NCBI GenBank assembly: GCA_011525845.1
Contig: WYBP01000003.1
Span: forward strand, 62,001 to 126,000
DNA from: Gemmatimonadaceae bacterium
GTDB lineage: Bacteria; Gemmatimonadota; Gemmatimonadetes; Gemmatimonadales; Gemmatimonadaceae
Direction of reading: 5' to 3'
DNA: 64,000 bases
The notes beneath the pieces were generated by a model. The model did no database searches. It was not told the origin of the DNA and saw only the letters and a program-made list of their open reading frames with translations. Of this stretch, positions 8,947 through 32,807 are shown piece by piece. The translations under genes and the position numbers were made by a program. Within the stretch, counting starts at the first letter, position 1. The number at the start of each line of letters is the position of its first letter.

Positions 8947-10425
8947 ATGAACGAACCCACCGCCACCGCGCTCCTTCTGGCGCTCATCGGGCTGCTGCTC
9001 GCCGGCAGCGTCCTCTCCACCCGCGCTTCAGAGCGCACCGGCGTGCCGGCGGTGCTCGTCTTCCTCGGTGTGGGCATGCTCGCGGGCTCGGAGATGCTCC
9101 TGGGTGTCGAATTCGACGACTACGGGTTCGCCTTCCGGGCGGGCACGGTCGCGCTCGTCCTGATCCTCTTCGACGGCGGGCTGAACACGCCGCTGTCCAA
9201 GGTGCGGCCCTACTGGGGCGCGGCGGTATCGCTGGCGACGCTCGGGGTGCTCTCCACGGCGGCGATCGTCGCGCTGGCCGCGCGCCTGCTCGGGCTGCCG
9301 CTGGAACTCGCGCTCCTGCTGGGTGCCATCGTGTCGTCCACGGACGCGGCCGCGATCTTCAGCGTGCTGCGCGGGGGTGGCGTGACCGTGCAGCCGAAGG
9401 TCGCGTCCACGCTGGAGCTCGAGTCGGGCCTCAACGATCCGCTCGCCGTGCTGCTCACGCTCTCGCTCACGGTGGCGATCGCGGGTGGCTCGACGGACGT
9501 CTCGTGGTGGTCGTTCGCCGGACACGGCGCACTGGAGCTCCTCGTCGGCGCGACGGTCGGCTGGGTGACGGGGCGGGGTGGCACCGCGATCCTCCGGCGC
9601 CTGCGGCTGCGCGCCACCGGCCTCTACCCGGCGCTGACGGTGGCGCTCGCGCTCTTCACCTACGGCGTCGCGACCCTGCTCGGCGGGAGCGGGTACCTCG
9701 CCGCCTATGTCGCCGCGCTGATCGTCGGGAACGCGGAGCTGCCGTACCGTGCGAGCCTCACCCGCGTGCACGACGCGCTCGCCTGGCTCTGCCAGATCGT
9801 GATGTTCATCCTGCTCGGCCTGCTCGTGACGCCGTCGCGGCTCGCCGAGGTGGCGTGGCTGGGGCTGGCGGTCGCACTCGTGCTGATCCTCGTGGCGCGC
9901 CCCGTGACCGTGGCGGTGCTGCTGGCGCCCTTCAAGTACAGCGCCCGCGAGGCGACGGCCGTGTCGTGGGCCGGCCTGCGGGGCGCGGTGCCGATCATCC
10001 TCGCGACCTATCCCGTGCTGCGGGGGATCGAGGGTGCGGAGGGGCTGTTCGACCTGACCTTCTTCGTGGTGGTGTCGAGCGCGCTGGTGTGCGGGGGCAC
10101 GATCCCCTGGGTGATCCGGAAGCTCCGGCTCGAGTCGGACGAGCCACCGCCGCCGCCGGCGGTGCTGGAGATCACCTCGACGCAGCCGCTCTCGGGCGTG
10201 CTGCTCTCGTTCTACGTGGACGACGCGCTCGACGTCACGGGGGTCCCGCTCAGCCAGATCCCGTTCCCCGAGGGCACCGCGATCACGCTGATCCTGCGCG
10301 ACGATGCGATCCTGGTGCCCAAGGGCCACTCCGTGCTGCAGGCGGGCGACCACGTGTACGTCGCGACGGCGCCCGCGGACCGTCCGTTCGTCCAGCTGCT
10401 CTTCGGCCGACCGGAAGCGAGCTGA
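8947..10425 (+). CDS. CPA1-type cation/proton antiporter with C-terminal TrkA-C domain
   Basis: A 492-residue inner-membrane transporter resembling NhaP2/CvrA, which exchanges K+ or Na+ for protons. About 12 hydrophobic segments fill residues 1-390, including FDGGLNTP (75-82), SSTDAAAIFSVLRG with D133, and LESGLNDPLA with N163-D164, the conserved ion-binding region. Residues from about 400 to 490 form a soluble RCK/TrkA-C domain (VPKGHSVLQAGDHVYV) that in relatives senses ligands. I chose ATG 8947 over the in-frame ATG 8929: it directly begins MNEPTATALL and has TATTGG exactly six bases upstream, resembling the short promoters of this genome. Which cation is moved is not decidable here. Confidence 0.9.
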   Translation: MNEPTATALLLALIGLLLAGSVLSTRASERTGVPAVLVFLGVGMLAGSEMLLGVEFDDYGFAFRAGTVALVLILFDGGLNTPLSKVRPYWGAAVSLATLGVLSTAAIVALAARLLGLPLELALLLGAIVSSTDAAAIFSVLRGGGVTVQPKVASTLELESGLNDPLAVLLTLSLTVAIAGGSTDVSWWSFAGHGALELLVGATVGWVTGRGGTAILRRLRLRATGLYPALTVALALFTYGVATLLGGSGYLAAYVAALIVGNAELPYRASLTRVHDALAWLCQIVMFILLGLLVTPSRLAEVAWLGLAVALVLILVARPVTVAVLLAPFKYSAREATAVSWAGLRGAVPIILATYPVLRGIEGAEGLFDLTFFVVVSSALVCGGTIPWVIRKLRLESDEPPPPPAVLEITSTQPLSGVLLSFYVDDALDVTGVPLSQIPFPEGTAITLILRDDAILVPKGHSVLQAGDHVYVATAPADRPFVQLLFGRPEAS

Positions 10426-10439
10426 CGGCAGGGCACCGC

Positions 10440-10445
10440 TAGATT
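10440..10445 (+). promoter_or_regulatory. TAGATT -10 element upstream of the 10481 gene
   Basis: TAGATTCCGGG is nearly the same string as in front of sucA. Counting the same six bases places transcription start near 10452, leaving a leader of about 28 bases with a purine-rich GGAGA five bases before the ATG at 10481. So the same promoter type is used here with a leader. Confidence 0.55.
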
Positions 10446-21554: not shown

Positions 21555-24500
21555 ATGCAGCTCAACCGACTCCCACGCATCCTGGCGCGCGCCGCGATGC
21601 TCGTGGCGCTCGCCGGGGTCTCCCTGGGCGCGCAGGCCGGCACCGGTGCGATCGCCGGCAAGGTCACGCTTCGCGGCACCGATCAACCGCTCGTGGAAGC
21701 GCGGGTGATCGTGATGGGGACCGCGCTCACGGTGTACACCAACACGCAGGGCGAATACCGCCTTCCGGCCGTCCCGGCCGGGGTCGTGCAGGTCACGGTG
21801 TACAAGGTCGGCTACCAGGCGGCGAGCGACACCGTCCGCGTCATGGTCGGGCAGTCCGCGACGCTGAACCTGACGATGGCCGTCTCGCGCGTGCAGCTCT
21901 CCGACGTCGTGGTGACCGGCACCGCCGGCAACCAGGAGCGGCGGGCGCAGGCGGCGGTCGTGACCAGCGTGGACCTCTCGGAGCTCGCGGCCGGGTCCGC
22001 GGCGCAGAACGTGAGCCAGCTGCTCGCCTCCAAGGTGCCGGGGGTCTCGGTGAACCAGGCGTCCGGCACGGCCGGCACGTCGCAGCGGATCAACATCCGC
22101 GGCGCCTCGTCGATCAACCTCTCCAACCAGCCGCTGATCTTCATCGACGGCATCCGGATGATCGAGGGCCAGCCCAGCCTCGGCGTCAACGGCCAGTCGG
22201 CGGACCGCCTGAACAACCTGAACCCGGACGACATCGAGTCGATCGAGCTCGTGAAGGGTCCCGCGGCGGCCACGCTCTACGGCGCGGATGCGTCGTCCGG
22301 CGTGATCCAGATCATCACCCGCAAGGGGCGCGCGGGGTCCTCGCGCTTCTCGCAGGCGATCAGCACCGAGTGGGGGACGCAGGACAAGTACTGGACGCCC
22401 CCGACGAACTACGCGTTCTGCACCACCGCGTCGATCGCGCCGACCAGCACGAACCCCCTCTGCCGGAACCAGACGACCACGACGCTCGTCGGCGACAACC
22501 CGCTCATGCGGGAGAACGCGTTCCGCAAGGGCTCGATCGCGAACTACGGCTACCGGGCGACCGGTGGCGGGACGAACTACGGCTACTTCATCTCGCTGAA
22601 CAAGGACCTGAACACCGGCGTCCTCCCGAACAACGAGTTCGGGCGCCAGGGCCTGCGCATGAACTTCAACTTCGTGCCGGACCCCAAGGTGACGGTGAAC
22701 GCGAGCCTCGCGATCCAGCAGTCGCGCGTGAAGGCGCCGGACAACGACAACAACATCTACGGCTTCCTGGGCGGCGGCCTGCTCGGGACGCCGATCTCGC
22801 GCACCGATGACGGCTCCGGCTCCAACGGCTGGTTCGGCTTCGCGCGCAACGTCGAGGCGATCTCCGCGATCGACAACCAGCTCGTCTCCCGCGGCACCAC
22901 GGCCGGGCTCACGGTGAACTACATCCCGCGCCCCTGGTTCACGCACCGCCTCACCATCGGCGGCGACATCCTGCTCGACGAGCAGACCCGCTTCTTCCCG
23001 CGCAACTCGCGCGGCTCGTACGCCGGCCTGCTGAACACCGGGTCGAACACGCAGACGCGCAACGGGATCCAGCGCTACACGGTGGACTACCTGGCGAACG
23101 CCAAGCGCAACTTCGGCGCCGGCGGGGAGTTCGAGCTGAACGGCTCGGCCGGGCTGCAGATGATCCAGACCCGCAACGACTTCATCAACATCACGGGCAC
23201 CGGGTTCGTCACGAACGCGAACAACGTCCCGTCGTCCGCCTCGCAGACGTCCGGCGGCGGACAGGTCACCGACGTGCGCCAGCGCGGGTGGGTCGGCCAG
23301 GCGCAGTTGGGACACCTCGACCGCCGCTTCCTGCAGGTCGGTCTCCGCGTGGACGAGTTCTCCGTGTTCGGCACGAACGTGGAGCCGGCGATCCTCCCGA
23401 AGGTCGGCGGGTCGTGGGTGATCTCGGATGAGGCGTTCTTCGGCGGCATGAGCCAGTACGTGAACTCGCTCCGCCTCCGCGCGGCGTGGGGCTCCACGGG
23501 CCGTGCGCCGGGCGCGGGCGCGGCGCTCACCACCTTCTCCTCGGCGCCGAGCATCGTGGGCTCCGTGGTGGAGTCCGGGGCGATCCCGCTCAACCCGGGG
23601 AACGACTCGCTCAAGGCCGAGCGTGGCCAGGAGATCGAGTTCGGCTTCGACGCGAGCTTCCTCGATGAGCGCGTCGCGATCGAGGTCACCTACTTCAACA
23701 AGACCACGAACGACCTGATCCTCAGCCAGCCGCTGCCGCCGTCGCTCGGCTTCGCCCAGAACCCGCAGGTGAACATCGGGCAGGTCAAGAACAGCGGCTT
23801 CGAGATCGGCGTCAGCGCGACGGCCTTCCAGAACCAGTACGTCACCTGGGACCTCCGCGCCGGCATGGCGACGCTCAAGAACGAACTCACGGACCTCGGC
23901 GGGATCGCACCGTTCGGCACGACGAACCGCTTCACCGAGGGCTTCCAGCTCGGCTCGTTCGTCTCGAAGAAGATCCGCAACATCAACGAGGCGACCGGTG
24001 TGGTGACGGTCTCCGACACCCTCGAGGTGATCGGCAACCAGTTCCCGACGTTCGAGGGCACGCTCTCGAGCACGGTGACGCTCTGGAACCAGCTCCGCAT
24101 CAACGGGCAGATCGACACCAAGCGCGACTTCCTGGTGTTCAACAACACGGCGTTCTTCCGCGAGACCCAGCTGGTGCGGAGCAACGAGCGCCTCGACACG
24201 CTGGTGCTGGACCGCCGCGAGCGGCTCCGCCGCTACGGCAACCCGACCACCGGGCAGCCGGCGTTCGTGCAGGAGAACGGCTCGCCGACCACCGTGAACG
24301 AGGTGCGCGAGGCGTTCATGCAGCCCGGCGACTTCGTCCGCATCCGCGAGATCGGCATCAACTGGGACATCCCGGCGCGCTGGGTCTCCCTGGTCTCCGG
24401 CGTGCAGAGCGCCTCGATCGGCATGGCGGTGCAGAACGTGCGCCTCTGGACGAACGACCGGTTCACCGGCCGTGACCCCGAGGTGATCTCCACCACCGGC

Positions 24501-24578
24501 GGCCAGTTCACGCGCGACGACTTCCTGACGCTCCCCAATCCGCGGACCACCGTGGTGCGGCTCAACCTGACCTTCTGA
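21555..24578 (+). CDS. SusC/RagA-type TonB-dependent outer-membrane transporter (pair 1)
   Basis: A 1007-residue outer-membrane importer. Signal peptide up to about residue 28 (GVSLGAQAG), then a carboxypeptidase-regulatory-like beta domain (GAIAGKVTLRGTDQPLVEARV, 31-105), the TonB box region SDVVVTGTAG (116-125), and a plug domain with INIRGASSINLSNQPLIFIDG and IESIELVKGPAAATLYG, the SusC hallmark. The rest is a 22-strand barrel ending in TVVRLNLTF with the terminal Phe needed for insertion. Together with the SusD-like lipoprotein seven bases downstream it would capture and import a large nutrient. No glycan hydrolase or extracytoplasmic sigma factor is adjacent, so the substrate is unknown; peptides or glycans are both possible. 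Confidence 0.93.
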   Translation: MQLNRLPRILARAAMLVALAGVSLGAQAGTGAIAGKVTLRGTDQPLVEARVIVMGTALTVYTNTQGEYRLPAVPAGVVQVTVYKVGYQAASDTVRVMVGQSATLNLTMAVSRVQLSDVVVTGTAGNQERRAQAAVVTSVDLSELAAGSAAQNVSQLLASKVPGVSVNQASGTAGTSQRINIRGASSINLSNQPLIFIDGIRMIEGQPSLGVNGQSADRLNNLNPDDIESIELVKGPAAATLYGADASSGVIQIITRKGRAGSSRFSQAISTEWGTQDKYWTPPTNYAFCTTASIAPTSTNPLCRNQTTTTLVGDNPLMRENAFRKGSIANYGYRATGGGTNYGYFISLNKDLNTGVLPNNEFGRQGLRMNFNFVPDPKVTVNASLAIQQSRVKAPDNDNNIYGFLGGGLLGTPISRTDDGSGSNGWFGFARNVEAISAIDNQLVSRGTTAGLTVNYIPRPWFTHRLTIGGDILLDEQTRFFPRNSRGSYAGLLNTGSNTQTRNGIQRYTVDYLANAKRNFGAGGEFELNGSAGLQMIQTRNDFINITGTGFVTNANNVPSSASQTSGGGQVTDVRQRGWVGQAQLGHLDRRFLQVGLRVDEFSVFGTNVEPAILPKVGGSWVISDEAFFGGMSQYVNSLRLRAAWGSTGRAPGAGAALTTFSSAPSIVGSVVESGAIPLNPGNDSLKAERGQEIEFGFDASFLDERVAIEVTYFNKTTNDLILSQPLPPSLGFAQNPQVNIGQVKNSGFEIGVSATAFQNQYVTWDLRAGMATLKNELTDLGGIAPFGTTNRFTEGFQLGSFVSKKIRNINEATGVVTVSDTLEVIGNQFPTFEGTLSSTVTLWNQLRINGQIDTKRDFLVFNNTAFFRETQLVRSNERLDTLVLDRRERLRRYGNPTTGQPAFVQENGSPTTVNEVREAFMQPGDFVRIREIGINWDIPARWVSLVSGVQSASIGMAVQNVRLWTNDRFTGRDPEVISTTGGQFTRDDFLTLPNPRTTVVRLNLTF

Positions 24579-24585
24579 GGCTGCC

Positions 24586-25830
24586 ATGCGATTCTCTTCC
24601 ATCACTGCCGCCGCGCCACGTGCGCTGGTCGGCCTCGCGCTCGCGGCCTCGGTCGCCTGCTCGGACTTCCTCACGGTCAAGAACCCGAACGTCATCGACG
24701 CCGGGTCCATCGACCCGGTGCAGGACGCGGCGACCCTCGCCAACTCCGGCCAGCAGAACTACCAGGTCACCCTGGGCTGGCTGATCATGTACGGCTCCTG
24801 GTTCACGGGCGAGGCGCTCGTGGCCGAGACCTTCCCGACGCGCAACGAGTACGGGCGCCGCGAGGTCGTGAGCTCGAACGGCTCGCACAACGGCGACGTC
24901 TGGGCACCGCTCTCGCAGTCGGCCGCGTCGAACCACTTCGTGATCGGGCTCGCGCTCCCCACGCCGGACACGAACATCAACTACGTGCGGGCGCACACCT
25001 GGCTCGGGTACACCTTCCTCCTCATGGCGGAGCAGTTCTGCCAGGGCGTGGTGTACGGTGGGCCGGCGCTGACCACGGCCAACATGCTCGACTCGGCGAT
25101 CGCGAACTTCACGACCGCGATCACCAAGGGCACCGCGAACGGGACCGCGGCGGCCACCACGCTGGCGAACGTCGCCCGCGTCGGGCGTGCCCGCGCGAAC
25201 CTCCAGGCCGGGAACGGCCCGGCGGCCATCGCCGACGCCGGGTCGGTGCCCGCCAACTTCACCTACAGCTTCAGCTTCGTCGATGACGCGGCCAACCGGA
25301 CCCGCGTGAGCAACCGGATGTGGCAGTTCACCTTCGATCGTGGGTCGATCTCGGTGGCGCCCGCGTTCCGTGTGACCGACCCGCGCATCGTGTACGGCGC
25401 GCCGGGCACGCACACGCTCTCGGCGCAGGATGCGACCGCGGGTCCGTTCTGGATCCAGCGGAAGTACCCGGCGTACACGTCCTCGCTCCGCGTGGCCTCC
25501 AAGCTCGAGGCTGACTACATCGCGGCCGAGGCGGGCGGCACCGCCACGCAGCAGACCATGATCGCGACGCGTCGCGCCGCGAACAGCCTGCCCGCCTACT
25601 CGGGTCCGACCGACGCCGCCAGCATCCTGATCGAGTTCATGCGCCAGAAGAACCTGGACTTCTGGCTCGAAGGCCAGCGCTTCGGCGACTGGCGCCGCAA
25701 CCCGACCGCCGTCACCGACGTGCCGGTCCCGGGTTCGACCTACTTCAAGCCGGGCTTCTCGCCGGTCGGCAACCAGACCTGCTACCCGCTGCCCCTGGCG
25801 GAGACGGACAACAACCCGAACTTCCCCTGA
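24586..25830 (+). CDS. SusD/RagB-like outer-membrane lipoprotein (pair 1)
   Basis: A 414-residue surface lipoprotein that acts as lid and substrate binder for the SusC channel. The signal peptide ends LAASVACSDF, with Cys25 as the likely lipidated residue, although the base at -3 is Ser instead of Leu. SDFLTVKNPNVIDAGSID is the start of SusD-like proteins in this phylum, and helices with repeated Ala/Asn motifs (ALTTANMLDSAIANFTTAI) look like the TPR core. RQKNLDFWLEGQRFGDWRRNP is the diagnostic C-terminal SusD block. It follows susC after seven bases. Confidence 0.9.
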   Translation: MRFSSITAAAPRALVGLALAASVACSDFLTVKNPNVIDAGSIDPVQDAATLANSGQQNYQVTLGWLIMYGSWFTGEALVAETFPTRNEYGRREVVSSNGSHNGDVWAPLSQSAASNHFVIGLALPTPDTNINYVRAHTWLGYTFLLMAEQFCQGVVYGGPALTTANMLDSAIANFTTAITKGTANGTAAATTLANVARVGRARANLQAGNGPAAIADAGSVPANFTYSFSFVDDAANRTRVSNRMWQFTFDRGSISVAPAFRVTDPRIVYGAPGTHTLSAQDATAGPFWIQRKYPAYTSSLRVASKLEADYIAAEAGGTATQQTMIATRRAANSLPAYSGPTDAASILIEFMRQKNLDFWLEGQRFGDWRRNPTAVTDVPVPGSTYFKPGFSPVGNQTCYPLPLAETDNNPNFP

Positions 25831-25923: not shown

Positions 25924-27267
25924 CTAGAACTCGAAGCCGAACGCGAGGTTCAAGTGCTGGTTCGTGACCGAGCTCGAGAGCTGGTCGGTCACCGTGCGCC
26001 TCCACTCGAAGCCCAGCACCAGCGGTCCCGCCGGACGCCAATGCAGGTGCGCCTCGCTCGTCCTGTTCCGCGTGCGCCCGCTGGGCGGCAGGTCCGCGTC
26101 CTCGGGATCGTCCATCCCCGCGCCCACGCCGACCAGCACGCGGGGCGTGGCGCGCAGGTTCAGTTGGCCCCAGCCACCCCGCGTGCGAACCGGTACGCCC
26201 CCCACGCCGAGCCCCTGCCCGATGCCGCCTCCTCCGAGTCCGCGCAGCGCCTGGCCGTCGAACGCCTCGGCGCGGAGCTCCACGCGGCCGACGGGCACGT
26301 GGAGGGTGAGCGTCACCGCGCGCGAATCGCGCTCCACGTCCGCCGCGTCGGCCACGCGCCCCGCGTGCACGCCGATCGCGACCGTGCCGGTCCCCTCCTG
26401 CTCGCCCCACTGCGCCCGCACCTGGCCCTCGAGATAGGGCATGCTGGTGCGCTCCGCGGCGTCGAACTGGGTGTCGAAGGTCGCGTTGGGTTCACCGCTC
26501 GTGGGCGCGAGGACCGCTGCCTGGAGCCCGACACGCACCCGCCCTGAGGTCTGCACCGTCGCGCGCACCTGTGGCAGCCAGAGCCAGAGGTTCCCTGCGG
26601 CGGTGAAGCCCGGTGTGCCCACCGAGGCGAGGCTCACCGGGTCGAGGGAGGCGACCAGGGGCTGGTCCTGTCCCACCATGAACTCCGCGTGCCGCCAGCT
26701 CAGGGTACCGCGCGCGGTGCGGAGCCTGAGCAGCGGGAAGGTGCGCCCCCCGGCGCTCGGGAGTTGCCCCCCGAAGAAGTCGACATCGAGGTCGCCGGTG
26801 AAGGTGCCGCCTGCCACCTCCTGCACGCTGAGCGCCACGCCGAGCCGCGTCTGGCGGATGCTCATCGCCATGCCGCCCTGCGGACCCGTCCCCGAGTCCG
26901 GACGCGCGAAGAGCGGGACATCCACGTTGTTGGTGCGGTGCGAGTTCGAGAAGGCGTTCACGAGCGCCCGGCCGGAGAACTCGAGCGCGACGCGGGACCG
27001 CGTGCGGAGCGCGGTGCCGCTCTCCGTGGCGAGCTGCTCCCGCAGCAGGGCGAGCGCCGCCTCGGCGTCCTCGAGTCGCTGCCGGATGGAGTCGAGCTGC
27101 GCCGCCGTCGGCGCCTGCGCGCCGGCGATGGGGGACGCGAGCAACGTGAGCAGGGTCACGCCAAGGATGGCGCGCGGCCGGCGCCACCTGCTTGACCGTC
27201 GCGCGCGCCGGAGGGTAGCGTTGGATGGTTCAGCCTCGAGGTATCGATGCGGCATCGGGACTCCCAT
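25924..27267 (-). CDS. Outer-membrane porin-like protein with N-terminal coiled coil
   Basis: A 447-residue exported protein. After an Arg-rich n-region there is a signal helix (AILGVTLLTLLASPIAGAQA), then a short coiled coil (AAQLDSIRQRLEDAEAALALLREQLA), then a long beta-rich part with alternating residues, for example RVALEFSGRALVNAF, GTLSWRHAEFMVGQDQPLV and a terminal LNLAFGFEF ending in Phe. Coiled coil plus barrel resembles trimeric porins of the DcaP/OprB kind; the exact family is not certain. The start is unclear: ATG 27267 and ATG 27255 both overlap the first codons of the divergent cupredoxin gene. Its neighbours suggest a role in metal or redox-related uptake, which is inference. 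Confidence 0.7.
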   Translation of the reverse strand: MGVPMPHRYLEAEPSNATLRRARRSSRWRRPRAILGVTLLTLLASPIAGAQAPTAAQLDSIRQRLEDAEAALALLREQLATESGTALRTRSRVALEFSGRALVNAFSNSHRTNNVDVPLFARPDSGTGPQGGMAMSIRQTRLGVALSVQEVAGGTFTGDLDVDFFGGQLPSAGGRTFPLLRLRTARGTLSWRHAEFMVGQDQPLVASLDPVSLASVGTPGFTAAGNLWLWLPQVRATVQTSGRVRVGLQAAVLAPTSGEPNATFDTQFDAAERTSMPYLEGQVRAQWGEQEGTGTVAIGVHAGRVADAADVERDSRAVTLTLHVPVGRVELRAEAFDGQALRGLGGGGIGQGLGVGGVPVRTRGGWGQLNLRATPRVLVGVGAGMDDPEDADLPPSGRTRNRTSEAHLHWRPAGPLVLGFEWRRTVTDQLSSSVTNQHLNLAFGFEF

Positions 27268-27969
27268 TGCGATTGGACCGGAGCGGGCCTGCGGATCGGG
27301 TTCGGCGTGGCGGTGCTGGCGCTCGCTGCGGCCGCCGCCGCGCCGGCCGCCGCACAGGGCACGGTCTCGGGCCGCGTGTCCATCGTGGAGCGCCCGAACG
27401 AGACCACCACCGACCTCAACAGCACCATTATCTACTTGGTGTCGGCGGAGAGCGCGAGCGTCGCACCCAAGGCCGGCCGCACCACCATCGCGATGAACGG
27501 CCGCGCGTTCGTGCCGCGACTGCGCGTGGTCTCACCGGGGAGTCGCGTGGATTTCCCCAATCAGGACCCCTTCAGCCACAACATCTTCTCGACCACGGCC
27601 GGCGCGCAGTTCGACCTGGGGCTCTACCCGGCCGGCAAGTCGAAGGAGGTGCAGTTCAAGCGCGCCGGCGCGTTCCCCGTGTACTGCAACATCCACCCGC
27701 GGATGACGGCGTTCGTCGTGGTCGCGCCCACGCCCTGGGTGGCGCAGGCCGGGAACGACGGCCGCTGGACCATCGAGGGGGTGCCGGCCGGGAAGTACAC
27801 CCTGCATGTGTGGCACGAGCGGGCAAAGGCGACGGAGACCCAAGTCGTGGTCGGTGCGGGGGGACTCGCGAACGTGGCGACGCCGCTGGACGCGCGCGGG
27901 TTCCGGTTCGTGCAGCACAAGAACAAGTTCGGCAAGGAGTACGACAAGACCGGCAAGGACCGCTACTGA
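27247..27969 (+). CDS. Secreted cupredoxin-like (plastocyanin-type) protein
   Basis: A 240-residue exported protein. The hydrophobic signal segment (GFGVAVLALAAAAAAPAAAQG) ends near residue 38. The core has the four ligands of a type 1 copper site: His111 in DPFSHNIF, then Cys147, His150 and Met153 in VYCNIHPRM. Between them FPNQDPFSHN and the Gly-rich turn match 'methylamine utilisation'-type cupredoxins. Residues about 170-205 (GRWTIEGVPAGKYTLHVWHER) form a carboxypeptidase-regulatory-like sandwich. It should bind copper and move electrons, or act as a copper-binding sensor, in the periplasm. The next gene, a sensor kinase, begins 28 bases later. Confidence 0.82.
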   Translation: MRHRDSHCDWTGAGLRIGFGVAVLALAAAAAAPAAAQGTVSGRVSIVERPNETTTDLNSTIIYLVSAESASVAPKAGRTTIAMNGRAFVPRLRVVSPGSRVDFPNQDPFSHNIFSTTAGAQFDLGLYPAGKSKEVQFKRAGAFPVYCNIHPRMTAFVVVAPTPWVAQAGNDGRWTIEGVPAGKYTLHVWHERAKATETQVVVGAGGLANVATPLDARGFRFVQHKNKFGKEYDKTGKDRY

Positions 27970-27997
27970 CGCCGCGTTCCCCCACAGCCCCCACCCC

Positions 27998-29998
27998 GTG
28001 AGACCGCGCGGCCTCAGCGTCACGCTCAAGATCTTCCTCGGCACGGCCCTCGTGATCGTCGTGGTCGTCGGCGTCACGCTGGCGGTGACCACGGCCTTCG
28101 CCACCCGGGCCGCGAACGACTCCGTGGGCCGTGTGCTCTCCTCCGCCCGCGAGGCGATGGGGACGCAGCTCACCGCGCGCGCGACGACCCTGCGCGGGGC
28201 CGCCGAGGTCTTCGCCCTCAACCCCCGCTTCCGCTCGATCGTCGAGAGCCGGGCCTTCACCGACGTGCTCGACCAGGCGGCCGTCGCCGAGGTCTCGCTC
28301 GGGGCGAGCTGGGTGCAGATCGTGGACGCCGAGGGCATCCGGATGGCGAAGAGCGACGAGCCCGGTGCCGCGGCGGACACGCTCTCGGGCTCCCCGGTGA
28401 TCGGTGCCGCCCTCGAGGGCGAGTCCGTGGTCGCGTTCGGCGTCACGGGGGATACGGTCCTCATCCAGATCACCGCCGTCCCGATCGAGGGCGCGGGGCG
28501 CATCGTCGGCGCCCTGATGGTCGCGAAGAACGTCGACAGCACCTTCGCCGCCTCCGTGAAGCGGCAGGCGGCCACCGACGTCGACGTCGTGTTCTCGTTC
28601 CTCGACCAGGACGACGAGCCGCTCGTCTCCGGTTCCACGCTCGGCCGCACGGACGAGGTCATCACGGCGCTCAAGGCGTTCCACGCGCTCGCCGGGGATT
28701 CCGCTTCCGACGCGCGCGTGGACGCCGAGATCGGCGGCATCCACTTCGTGGGGCTGGGCGAGGTGCTGCGCTCGGCAGGGGGCACGCCGCTCGGCGGTTT
28801 CGTGATGCTGCGGAACCGTGATGCGGAGTTCGCGACCTTCGCGCGGCTGCAGGAGGCGATCCTCCTCTCCGGCGGCATCGGCATCCTCGTGGCGGCGCTG
28901 CTCTCGCTCCTCCTCGCCCGGCAGATCACGCGCCCCCTCGGCCGCCTGGTGGAGGCGACCAAGCGCGCCACCGACGGCGACTACGCGACGCAGATCCCGA
29001 TCCAGAGCCGGGATGAGATCGGCACGCTGGCCGGCGCCTTCCGCGCCCTCCTCGCCGACCTGCGCGAGAAGCAGCAACTGGTCGAGTTCCTGGGCGGCAC
29101 CGACAGCGCGCGCACGGTGCAGTTGCAGGCGCTCTCGGCCACCAGCGAGCAGCGGGTGCAGGCCGGGGGGATCGTGCCGGGCGCGAAGTTCGCGGGCCGC
29201 TACGAGGTGAAGGAGGTGCTCGGGGAGGGCGGGATGGGCACCGTGTATCGCGCGCTCGACGCGGAGCTGCACGAGGTGATCGCGATCAAGACCCTCAAGA
29301 AGGACTTCCTCTCGCAGGACCCGACCGCGCTCGACCGCTTCAAGGAGGAGATCCGGCTCGCCCGCCGCATCTCGCACCGCAACGTCGTCCGCACGCACGA
29401 CCTCGGCGAGAACTCCGGCGTCTACTTCATCACGATGGAGTACGTGGAGGGGACGTCGCTCAAGGAGCTGATCCGCGCGCGCGGACGCCTCCCGCTCAAC
29501 ATCGCGCTCTCGGTCGGCAAGCAGCTGGCGCGGGCGCTCGAGGTGGCCCACGAGCAGGGGATCATCCACCGGGACATCAAGCCCGCCAACATCGTGGTGG
29601 AGGCGGACGGCGTGCTCAAGGTGATGGACTTCGGCATCGCCCGGCTCGCCGTGCGGAAGCCGGAGAGCGGCGTCACGCAGGCGGGGATGATCGTGGGGAC
29701 GCCGGAGTACATGGCGCCCGAGCAGGTGGCCGGGGGCGAGGTGGACCAGCGCGTGGACATCTACGCGGCCGGGTGCGTGCTCTACGAATGCCTCACGGGA
29801 CGGGCGCCGCTGACGGGGGAGACGCCCTACCAGCTCATCGCGAAGCTGCTGGAGGACATGCCGCAGTCCCCCCGCGCGATCAACCCGGAGATCCCCCCAG
29901 CGCTCGAGGCGCTCATCATGCGCGCCCTGGCGAAGGACCCCGCCGCCCGGCCGCAGTCCGCGGTGGAACTCCACGACCGGCTGGCCGAGATCGGCTAG
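27998..29998 (+). CDS. Membrane Ser/Thr protein kinase with histidine-kinase-like topology
   Basis: A 666-residue protein. TM1 is about 9-34 (IFLGTALVIVVVVGVTLAV), followed by a periplasmic sensor of about 250 residues whose pattern (WVQIVDAEGIRMAKSDEPG; VLIQITAVPI) looks like a double CACHE domain. TM2 is about 286-307, HAMP about 305-358 (RQITRPLGRLVEATKRATDGDY), then a linker and a complete Hanks kinase: GEGGMG 409-414, catalytic Lys431, HRD 524-526, DFG 544-546 and APE 573-575, all present. Bacterial Ser/Thr kinases usually place the kinase first and the sensor after one TM; here the order is that of a histidine kinase with the catalytic domain replaced. The GTG at 27998 begins the recognisable protein. 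Confidence 0.9.
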   Translation: MRPRGLSVTLKIFLGTALVIVVVVGVTLAVTTAFATRAANDSVGRVLSSAREAMGTQLTARATTLRGAAEVFALNPRFRSIVESRAFTDVLDQAAVAEVSLGASWVQIVDAEGIRMAKSDEPGAAADTLSGSPVIGAALEGESVVAFGVTGDTVLIQITAVPIEGAGRIVGALMVAKNVDSTFAASVKRQAATDVDVVFSFLDQDDEPLVSGSTLGRTDEVITALKAFHALAGDSASDARVDAEIGGIHFVGLGEVLRSAGGTPLGGFVMLRNRDAEFATFARLQEAILLSGGIGILVAALLSLLLARQITRPLGRLVEATKRATDGDYATQIPIQSRDEIGTLAGAFRALLADLREKQQLVEFLGGTDSARTVQLQALSATSEQRVQAGGIVPGAKFAGRYEVKEVLGEGGMGTVYRALDAELHEVIAIKTLKKDFLSQDPTALDRFKEEIRLARRISHRNVVRTHDLGENSGVYFITMEYVEGTSLKELIRARGRLPLNIALSVGKQLARALEVAHEQGIIHRDIKPANIVVEADGVLKVMDFGIARLAVRKPESGVTQAGMIVGTPEYMAPEQVAGGEVDQRVDIYAAGCVLYECLTGRAPLTGETPYQLIAKLLEDMPQSPRAINPEIPPALEALIMRALAKDPAARPQSAVELHDRLAEIG

Positions 29999-30020
29999 GC
30001 CCGGCACGGGGCCCGGCCAT

Positions 30021-30032: not shown

Positions 30033-32807
30033 ATGTCCAACGAACCCATCGCGAGCGTCTTCAACGACGCCTACGCGGCCGAGCAGTTCGAGGCCTACCG
30101 CCGGGATCCGGCGTCCGTCGAGGAGTCCTGGCGCCAGTTCTTCCGCTTCGCCGAGCAGGCGATGGGGGTCGCGGCTCCCGCAGCACCCGCCGCGGCCGCC
30201 CCGAGTGCGCCGGACCCCGAGTACGCGCGCAAGGCCGCCGGCGCGGCGCGCTACACCACCGCCATCCGCAACTACGGCCACTTCGCGGTCCAGATCGATC
30301 CCCTCGGCACGCCGCCTCCCGGCGCGGCCGAGCTCGAGCTCTCGTTCTTCGGCATCACCGAGGCCGACCTCGACCTCGTCACCGGTGCCTCGCTCGGCTT
30401 CCCGCACCTCGCCACGGCGCGCGATGTGGCCAACCGGCTCCGCAAGCGGTACTGCACCAACCTCGGCGTCGAGGTGCGGCACCTGGGGAGCGAGGAGGAG
30501 CGCGCCTGGTTCCGCCGCATCTTCACCGAGGAGCAGCTCACGCGCCCGCTCACCGCGGACGAGAAGAAGGCGATGCTCCGCCGCCTCACCGAGGTGGATG
30601 GGTTCGAGCGTTTCCTCGGCCGCACCTTCGTGGGATACAAGCGCTTCTCAATCGAGGGCACGGATGCCCTCGTCCCGATGCTCGACACCGCGGTGGACGA
30701 GGCCGCCGCCGCGGGGGCGAAGCACGTCGCGATCTCGATGGCGCACCGCGGGCGCATCAGCGTGCTCGCGCACATCCTCGACAAGCCCCTCGAGCTCATC
30801 CTGAGCGAGTTCCAGGGCCGGCACGGGCACCTCGCCGGCGCCTCCACGGGCGACGTGAAGTACCACCTCGGCTACGACGGCTCGCACCAGACGCCGAGCG
30901 GGACCATCGCGGTCTCGCTCGTGCCGAACCCGAGCCACCTCGAGATCGTGAACCCCGTGCTGCAGGGGAAGGCGCGCGCGCTCCAGCGCTCGGCCGCCGA
31001 CCGCCGCCGGCGCGACGAGGCGAGCGTGGTGCCCATCTGCATCCACGGCGACGCGGCGTTCCCCGGCGAGGGCATCGTCCCCGAGACGATGAACCTCTCG
31101 CGGCTGCGCGCGTACCGCGTGGGCGGCACGCTGCACATCATCGTGAACAACCAGGTGGGCTTCACCACCGATCCCACGGACGCGCGCTCCACGCGCTACG
31201 CGAGCGACGTGGCGAAGGGCTTCGAGATGCCCATCATCCACGTGAACGCGGACGACGCCGAGGCCTGCGTGATCGCGATGCGCATCGCGGTGGCCTACCG
31301 GACGCGCTTCCACAAGGACTTCCTGATCGACCTCGTGGGATACCGGCGCTGGGGCCACAACGAGGGGGACGAGCCGAGCTTCACGCAGCCCCTCCTCTAC
31401 GAGCGCGTGCGCGCACATCCCACGCCCCGGCAGGTGTGGGGCAACCGGCTGCTCAAGGAGCAGTTGGTGACCGCCGAGGAGGTGGAGGCGGTGGACAAGG
31501 AGGTCGCCGCCGGGTTCCAGGCCGCATTCGAGGCATCCAAGGCGGACACGGATGACGCCCACGCCAATGGCGTGCAGGAGGCGCCGTCGCTCGTCGTGGA
31601 CACGCGCGTTCCCGCTGGCGACCTCACGCGCTGGAACGAGCAGCTGCTCGCCTACCCGTCGGACTTCACGCCCCACCCGCGCCTGGCGAAGCAGCTCGAG
31701 CGCCGGCGCGAGGCGCTGCACGGCGACGGCGGCATCGACTGGGGGCACGCCGAGACGCTCGCCTTCGCGTCGATCCTCGCCGCCGGCACGAACATCCGCA
31801 TGTCGGGACAGGACGTGGAGCGCGGCACCTTCTCGCACCGCCACGCCGTGCTGAACGACGTGAAGACGGGCGCGAAGTACGCTCCCCTCGCGAACATCCC
31901 CGGCGTCTCCTCCTCGTTCGAGATCTACAACTCGGCGCTCTCCGAGATGGCGGTCATGGGCTTCGAGTACGGCTACAGCGTGGCCGCTCCCGACACGCTC
32001 ACGCTCTGGGAGGCACAGTTCGGAGACTTCGGGAACGTCGCGCAGCCGGTGATCGACCAGTTCCTCGTCTCCGACCGCGCGAAGTGGGCGCAGGACTCGG
32101 GGCTCGTGCTGCTGCTGCCGCACGGCTATGAGGGGCAGGGACCGGAGCACTCGAGCGCGCGCCTCGAGCGCTTCCTCCAGCTCTGCGCCGAGGACAACCT
32201 GCGGGTCGCGTACCCCAGCACCCCGGCGCAGTACTTCCACATCCTTCGCCGCCAGGCGATGCTCGACCGGCGTCGCCCACTGGTGCTGATGCAGCCCAAG
32301 TCACTGCTGCGCCTGAACGCGGCCGCCTCGGCGCTCAGCGACCTGGCGGAGGGGAACTTCCGTCCGGTGATCGACGACCCGACGGGTGCGCAGAAGCGCG
32401 ACGCGGTGCGGCGCCTGGTGTTCTGCACGGGGAAGGTCTACTACGACCTGCTCGCGCAGGGCGTGCCCGACACGGTGGCCGTGGTGAGGGTGGAGGAGAT
32501 CTTCCCCTGGCCGCACGAGGAGGTGGCGCGGATCGTGGACCTCTATCCCGCGATCGACGAGGTGGCGTGGGTGCAGGAGGAGCCGAAGAACCAGGGGGCC
32601 TGGGGCTTCGCGGCGCCGCGCCTTCGCGTGTCCGCCGGGAACGCTCTCGTCATCCGGTATTACGGCCGCGCCGAGCGCGCGAGTCCCGCCGAGGGGTACA
32701 CGGACACGCACGCGCAGGAACAGGCGCGGATCGTGAACGAGGCGCTGCAGGTGCATGTGCGCACCACCGGCGCGCGCCGGATGACCACGATGGCGCGCTC
32801 CTCCTGA
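30033..32807 (+). CDS. sucA: 2-oxoglutarate dehydrogenase E1 component
   Basis: A 924-residue thiamine-diphosphate enzyme that decarboxylates 2-oxoglutarate in the TCA cycle and passes succinyl to the E2 subunit. The N-terminal NDAYAAEQFEAYRRDPASVEESWRQFF is the E1 helix that binds E2, then an Ala/Pro linker (about 45-62), then FSIEGTDALVPML (205-217), SMAHRGRISVLAH, GDAAFPGEGIVPE for ThDP/Mg2+, and QDVERGTFSHRHAVL in the C-terminal half. It ends with the EEPKNQGAWGF block found in all SucA proteins. sucB and lpd are not adjacent. The ATG is fixed by the upstream element. Confidence 0.96.
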   Translation: MSNEPIASVFNDAYAAEQFEAYRRDPASVEESWRQFFRFAEQAMGVAAPAAPAAAAPSAPDPEYARKAAGAARYTTAIRNYGHFAVQIDPLGTPPPGAAELELSFFGITEADLDLVTGASLGFPHLATARDVANRLRKRYCTNLGVEVRHLGSEEERAWFRRIFTEEQLTRPLTADEKKAMLRRLTEVDGFERFLGRTFVGYKRFSIEGTDALVPMLDTAVDEAAAAGAKHVAISMAHRGRISVLAHILDKPLELILSEFQGRHGHLAGASTGDVKYHLGYDGSHQTPSGTIAVSLVPNPSHLEIVNPVLQGKARALQRSAADRRRRDEASVVPICIHGDAAFPGEGIVPETMNLSRLRAYRVGGTLHIIVNNQVGFTTDPTDARSTRYASDVAKGFEMPIIHVNADDAEACVIAMRIAVAYRTRFHKDFLIDLVGYRRWGHNEGDEPSFTQPLLYERVRAHPTPRQVWGNRLLKEQLVTAEEVEAVDKEVAAGFQAAFEASKADTDDAHANGVQEAPSLVVDTRVPAGDLTRWNEQLLAYPSDFTPHPRLAKQLERRREALHGDGGIDWGHAETLAFASILAAGTNIRMSGQDVERGTFSHRHAVLNDVKTGAKYAPLANIPGVSSSFEIYNSALSEMAVMGFEYGYSVAAPDTLTLWEAQFGDFGNVAQPVIDQFLVSDRAKWAQDSGLVLLLPHGYEGQGPEHSSARLERFLQLCAEDNLRVAYPSTPAQYFHILRRQAMLDRRRPLVLMQPKSLLRLNAAASALSDLAEGNFRPVIDDPTGAQKRDAVRRLVFCTGKVYYDLLAQGVPDTVAVVRVEEIFPWPHEEVARIVDLYPAIDEVAWVQEEPKNQGAWGFAAPRLRVSAGNALVIRYYGRAERASPAEGYTDTHAQEQARIVNEALQVHVRTTGARRMTTMARSS

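Follow-up and report, generated by a model that had tools for sequence, protein, structure and literature searches.

The sensor kinase gene of the window (the whole stretch of DNA analysed, 64,000 nucleotides long) raises the question of how a bacterial Ser/Thr kinase built on the plan of a histidine kinase receives its signal, and whether the copper-protein gene in front of it takes part. The first-pass annotation had read the gene product as transmembrane segment, CACHE-like sensor, transmembrane segment, HAMP and Hanks kinase, and this order was confirmed by Pfam and hydropathy analysis (Table 1). The hydropathy profile contained two strong hydrophobic segments, so that two membrane helices are predicted rather than a single one. 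The domain between them, at first only "CACHE-like", could be specified as dCache_3 (29.4 bits against a cut-off of 25.7); it is followed, after the second helix, by HAMP (56.0 bits, cut-off 25) and by the kinase domain (Pkinase, 191.1 bits, cut-off 31.7). All catalytic residues noted at first reading were found, namely the Gly-rich loop (GEGGMG), the VAIK-type Lys (IAIK), the HRD Asp (HRDIKPAN), DFG and APE. By this set of motifs the protein is a Hanks-type Ser/Thr kinase, with predicted activity. HisKA, HATPase_c and receiver domains were not detected by Pfam, and the PknB-like kinase domain occupies the position of a histidine-kinase transmitter. The best NCBIfam match was the PASTA kinase model NF033483 (340.2 bits, cut-off 450), which covered the kinase domain only; PASTA repeats were not detected by Pfam. 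Of 33 Pkinase matches in approximately 32 genes and 13 HAMP matches in the genome, this gene was the only one to combine both. A homologue in locus L011 begins at a GTG equivalent to that of the window gene. Long open reading frames on the opposite strand (e.g., 27656–30007) were regarded as shadow frames of high-GC DNA and were not taken for genes.

Table 1. Features of the cupredoxin–receptor kinase locus in the window and of the apparent cyclase/barrel fusions in related loci (L numbers).
Feature	Position	Strand	Basis
Porin-like outer-membrane protein gene, divergent	25924..27267	-	structure model and Foldseek; homologue nearby in 51/60 loci
Secreted cupredoxin gene, C-terminal CarboxypepD_reg-like domain; exact start uncertain	27247..27969	+	ligand motif, Pfam
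Sensor Ser/Thr kinase gene, GTG start, 666 aa	27998..29998	+	ORF, Pfam
TM1, residues 12-30	28031..28087	+	hydropathy
dCache_3 match, residues 53-200, inside periplasmic region 31-287	28154..28597	+	Pfam, 29.4 bits
TM2, residues 288-306	28859..28915	+	hydropathy
HAMP, residues 305-357	28910..29068	+	Pfam, 56.0 bits
Hanks-type kinase domain, residues 402-653, catalytic motifs intact	29201..29956	+	Pfam, motif inspection
Cyclase/barrel fusion frame	L112:7884-10952
Cyclase/barrel fusion frame	L113:7965-10946
Further cyclase/barrel fusion frames	L142, L147, L151, L152, L154, L157, L160

The sensor half was examined for residues that could hold a metal. Among the homologues, the periplasmic domain showed no well-conserved Cys, His or Met, and its most conserved polar pair was the near-invariant D92-Q93. 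Copper sensing by this domain alone is thus unlikely, as a conserved Cys/His/Met site is absent. An AF2 model of the sensor, built from four sequences and of low confidence (pLDDT 44), had an order of elements compatible with a double PAS-like fold behind a long N-terminal helix.

The kinase gene lies directly behind a gene for a secreted cupredoxin. The interval of 28 bases given at first reading was correct, since the cupredoxin stop ends at 27969, and the porin-like gene is divergent from the cupredoxin gene, as had been stated. The cupredoxin possesses the type-1 copper ligand set H111/C147/H150/M153 and ends in a CarboxypepD_reg/fn3-like domain; its score against Pfam Copper-bind was 20.3, slightly below the cut-off of 21.2. 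Based on the ligand set, it is a putative type-1 copper protein. The His-Cys-His-Met ligands with C-x2-H-x2-M spacing were complete in 120 of 121 cupredoxin homologues, the sole failure being L145, where the frame stops before the Cys. Distant homologues were also seen on Sinorhizobium and Phyllobacterium plasmids (L124, L126), there without a receptor and with SCO, hemA, metallophosphoesterase and Sox or cbb3-type oxidase genes as neighbours. In a further group of cupredoxins, genes for a histidine kinase and for a response regulator of the sigma-54 type lie 5' of the cupredoxin gene (L129, L130, L131, L133, L134, L144, L156, L167); the histidine kinase of L130 carries dCache_1 and PAS domains.

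To determine how constant this arrangement is, 395 Gemmatimonadota genomes were searched for homologues of the sensor half, and approximately 75 surrounding stretches were mapped by tblastn. The cupredoxin linkage was counted in the sensor-kinase loci with at least 900 bp of upstream sequence (n = 66). A cupredoxin gene was located directly 5' and on the same strand in 65 of them, representing 31 of 32 genera. The link between kinase and cupredoxin, which the first-pass annotation had drawn from position only, therefore holds, and the neighbours of the homologues are conserved rather than unrelated. The lone exception was L062 (genus g14), in which an outer-membrane-like gene lies directly 5' of the receptor kinase and a cytochrome-like gene is nearby. 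Of 60 loci, 51 had a porin homologue no more than 3 kb away. Because it is divergent in 35 and codirectional in 16 of these, the link of cupredoxin, receptor and porin survives rearrangement, and the order cupredoxin to receptor was maintained even where the porin was inverted.

Such a neighbourhood could simply have been inherited vertically, with genes travelling together free of functional coupling. The sensor-kinase loci all come from one phylum and near relatives of the window genome keep the downstream gene sucA too, as this explanation would have it. However, sucA was lost in 39 of 58 loci (kept in 19) and the porin was inverted in 16, yet the cupredoxin was kept in 65 of 66; the pair was also found in a second phylum and together with different outputs. 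Inheritance without coupling was thus already disfavoured, and we consider it highly improbable. The sucA gene itself (2-oxoglutarate dehydrogenase E1; 30033–32807 in the window) was rejected as a member of the module in view of its frequency and is a local neighbour only. It stands close behind the kinase in near relatives, e.g., L011, L042 and L044–L048, and a Ser/Thr kinase beside 2-oxoglutarate dehydrogenase recalls the control of OdhI by PknG. On the other side of the locus, window positions 21555–25830 encode a TonB-dependent receptor whose N-terminus is of the carboxypeptidase-regulatory type; the lipoprotein-like gene after it is SusD-like by look and had no Pfam match.

The porin-like protein had no Pfam match and no sequence match in the PDB. 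Its AlphaFold model was of low confidence (pLDDT 51); the Foldseek matches of this model were porins, with DcaP (6eus) first (E value, 4.9e-13), and a coiled-coil-like helix (H55-82) precedes the modelled barrel. In DcaP, a coiled-coil helix lies ahead of a 16-strand barrel. The model and the character of the sequence weakly suggest that the protein is an outer-membrane barrel. The annotated start of its gene overlaps the cupredoxin start, and the true start is probably further inside the annotated frame.

The same sensor half was also found in front of other enzymes. Sampling comprised Gemmatimonadota genomes and plasmids. A plasmid search with the sensor of the window returned no match at an E value of 1e-5; the receptors with other outputs, including those of Pseudomonadota, were found by way of a cupredoxin search and the loci around its matches. 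Output classes were assigned by Pfam for ten proteins and by scripted sequence motifs for the remainder. A profile of the kinase-class sensor half matched, end to end, receptors beside the cupredoxin that were histidine kinases (e.g., L100, E value, 8e-52; L114, E value, 5.7e-55), class III nucleotide cyclases (L112, E value, 2.7e-33) and GGDEF-EAL proteins on Pseudomonadota plasmids (L123, E value, 9.7e-45). In BLASTP, the window sensor shared 28% identity over 342 aa with a Caballeronia GGDEF-EAL protein (E value, 1e-20). The histidine kinase and cyclase outputs occurred in Gemmatimonadota and the GGDEF-EAL output on Pseudomonadota plasmids. On these plasmids the cupredoxin gene precedes the receptor gene by a few bp and is annotated as "methylamine utilization protein" or "carboxypeptidase regulatory-like"; genes for DUF3034 and for a truncated haemoglobin are mostly nearby. 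The pairing of cupredoxin and receptor thus spans Gemmatimonadota, is independent of the output domain and extends to Pseudomonadota. In maximum-likelihood trees of the sensors and of the cupredoxins, the kinase, cyclase and GGDEF-EAL classes each formed one group with strong support, and the histidine kinases formed two or three. The sensor tree requires a minimum of three output changes, in a direction left open by the lack of a known root. In L114, a response regulator with an HD_5 domain (9473–10441) follows the histidine-kinase module, a possible link to c-di-GMP. Four loci of the kinase class (L106, L107, L108 and L109; genera g3 and g6) encode degenerate, pseudokinase-like domains, with changes such as HRD to HAN or HGG and DFG to DYG or ITG, and still keep cupredoxin and porin.

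The receptor frame of nine cyclase-type modules, which belong to families f5 and f6, runs stop-free into an outer-membrane-like domain of approximately 400 aa. The order in these frames is dCache-HAMP-class III cyclase, hydrophobic stretch and outer-membrane-like domain, with an aromatic C-terminus in eight of the nine; in most, the hydrophobic stretch ends with an A-x-A|Q-like signal-peptidase site. They are apparent receptor-cyclase/barrel polyproteins, the barrel being assigned by its sequence character. Because nine receptor frames continue in this way, the barrel can be tied to the receptor. A single barrel family for all output classes was not supported, as the kinase-class porin and the cyclase-fused domain showed no profile similarity.

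Taken together, the anatomy, the intact motifs, the near-invariant copper ligands, the near-universal linkage, the interchange of outputs and the matching division of the sensor and cupredoxin trees by output class support the reading that we favour by a modest degree, in which the window kinase is a cupredoxin-coupled transmembrane receptor kinase and one version of a module with exchangeable output. Two parts of this module are constant, namely a secreted cupredoxin of the type-1 copper kind and a receptor of the dCache_3-HAMP type; an outer-membrane barrel usually forms the third. Counting against this reading are the sensor devoid of metal ligands, the sub-cut-off Copper-bind score, the degenerate kinases of L106–L109 and the lack of an adjoining cupredoxin in L062. 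From this we infer the signal, the role of the cupredoxin as input and its contact with the sensor and, for the kinase, dimerisation, activity and targets. In the proposed working, a small molecule or redox-active species would enter the periplasm via the barrel, and the cupredoxin would switch its state by taking up or losing copper, by passing between Cu(I) and Cu(II), or by binding a ligand. A redox or metal signal, as suggested at first reading, is a candidate. The changed cupredoxin would then engage the dCache_3 domain, presumably by physical contact, and a conformational change would travel along TM2 into the HAMP bundle in the manner of histidine kinases. The two Ser/Thr kinase domains at the C-termini would thereby be re-oriented, leading to trans-autophosphorylation and to phosphorylation of cytoplasmic targets. 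A HAMP relay to the kinase is consistent with the anatomy and with the occurrence of this sensor half in front of three other outputs (histidine kinase, cyclase, GGDEF-EAL). The simplest reading makes the cupredoxin a component of the input. As the periplasmic domain lacks a well-conserved Cys, His or Met, copper would be read via the cupredoxin, or the cupredoxin would relay its redox state.

The linkage could equally mean, and this counts against the cupredoxin as input, that the cupredoxin is regulated by the receptor. In the strongest rival explanation, cupredoxin and barrel are both regulated products, dCache_3 binds a small molecule such as a carboxylate or amino acid, the output controls an envelope electron-transfer or uptake unit, and the cupredoxin is an ordinary electron carrier. 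Regulators often adjoin their targets, the barrel model resembles porins with DcaP first, and the sensor lacks metal ligands yet has its near-invariant D92-Q93. Cache domains usually bind small molecules directly. Sensing of amino acids and citrate by dCache_1 domains is described in a review. However, the pair stays with four types of output enzyme, mostly ones that do not control how a neighbouring gene is transcribed; a conserved redox enzyme partner beside the cupredoxin was not seen when the neighbourhoods were inspected; and the order cupredoxin to receptor does not follow the inversion of the porin. We regard regulation of the cupredoxin by the receptor as rather unlikely.

A role in copper homeostasis would make the cupredoxin a periplasmic copper store or carrier, with the receptor reporting copper overload or shortage and the barrel admitting copper complexes. 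The full ligand set in 120 of 121 cupredoxins fits this explanation, but type-1 copper sites usually serve electron transfer, not storage. In addition, copper ATPase, CopC/CopD and CueO-like genes were not seen beside the conserved genes, as judged by inspection and not by family search, and the truncated haemoglobin among the Pseudomonadota neighbours points instead to NO or O2. Copper homeostasis is therefore considered improbable.

Beyond the window kinase, we tentatively propose, with slightly more doubt than confidence, a new class of envelope sensing in which the cupredoxin serves a dCache_3-HAMP receptor as its signal-input subunit. Its output would have been swapped at least three times among Ser/Thr kinase, histidine kinase, class III cyclase and c-di-GMP enzyme, the pairing would have been kept in at least two phyla, and receptor and barrel would form one polyprotein in some lineages. 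If the cupredoxin is the input, the module would represent a principle of periplasmic copper-protein or redox sensing that serves several output enzymes, and one route by which envelope signals reach bacterial Ser/Thr kinases. It also provides a candidate function for cupredoxins annotated merely as "methylamine utilization protein", and a natural experiment in which one HAMP-linked input is joined to four unrelated outputs, including a Ser/Thr kinase.

Parts of this picture have precedents. The reviews of bacterial Ser/Thr kinases considered here describe PASTA and other types with an N-terminal kinase, and the word HAMP is absent from two of them (PMC6213207, PMC1262709). CHASE2-kinases, whose CHASE2 domain is also used by histidine kinases, are a precedent for shared input domains (PMC1262709). 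Heme-bearing Cache sensors with the properties of NO sensors have been reported in a preprint (PMC12889525) and are a precedent for redox or NO sensing by Cache receptors, with another arrangement of the cofactor. In the open-licence literature, searches on DUF3034, on Gemmatimonadetes Cache-kinases and on cupredoxins combined with EAL, HAMP or a porin gave no account of the pairing, and no description of a cupredoxin paired with a dCache_3 kinase was found, an absence that is weak evidence.

Compared with known systems, the architecture of the window kinase is already on record. In the portion of the 2016 Cache census considered here, the dCache_3 proteins comprise 327 histidine kinases, 236 chemoreceptors, 248 c-di-GMP proteins, four cyclases and one Ser/Thr kinase, so that the dCache_3-kinase architecture is counted once; 25 dCache_1 proteins with a Ser/Thr kinase are listed as well (PMC4822843). 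These proteins belong to the same architecture class and are counted in that portion without a partner, whereas the present family is phylum-wide and has a cupredoxin as partner. The PASTA kinases PknB and PrkC share the PknB-like kinase domain; they have an N-terminal kinase, one transmembrane segment and PASTA repeats, whereas the window kinase domain is C-terminal (402–653 of 666 residues) and the protein has two transmembrane segments with HAMP between them and the kinase. With Cache-HAMP histidine kinases and chemoreceptors, the window protein has the input half in common (transmembrane segment, periplasmic Cache, transmembrane segment, HAMP). It differs from the histidine kinases in its Hanks Ser/Thr kinase output, in place of HisKA, HATPase and receiver domains, and true histidine kinases with homologous sensors adjoin the same cupredoxin family. 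Plastocyanin, amicyanin and nitrosocyanin share the H-C-H-M type-1 ligand set with the window cupredoxin, with weak sequence matches, whereas the family of the window cupredoxin is linked to receptors and adds, at the C-terminus, a CarboxypepD_reg-like domain in which a WH motif is conserved. A parallel in gene order is offered by the Pseudomonadota clusters of "methylamine utilization protein", EAL and DUF3034 genes, known from annotation only: they differ in their GGDEF-EAL output, in the added truncated haemoglobin gene and in a DUF3034 protein without demonstrated kinship to the window barrel, and they likewise place a homologue of the cupredoxin directly 5' of a dCache_3-HAMP receptor.
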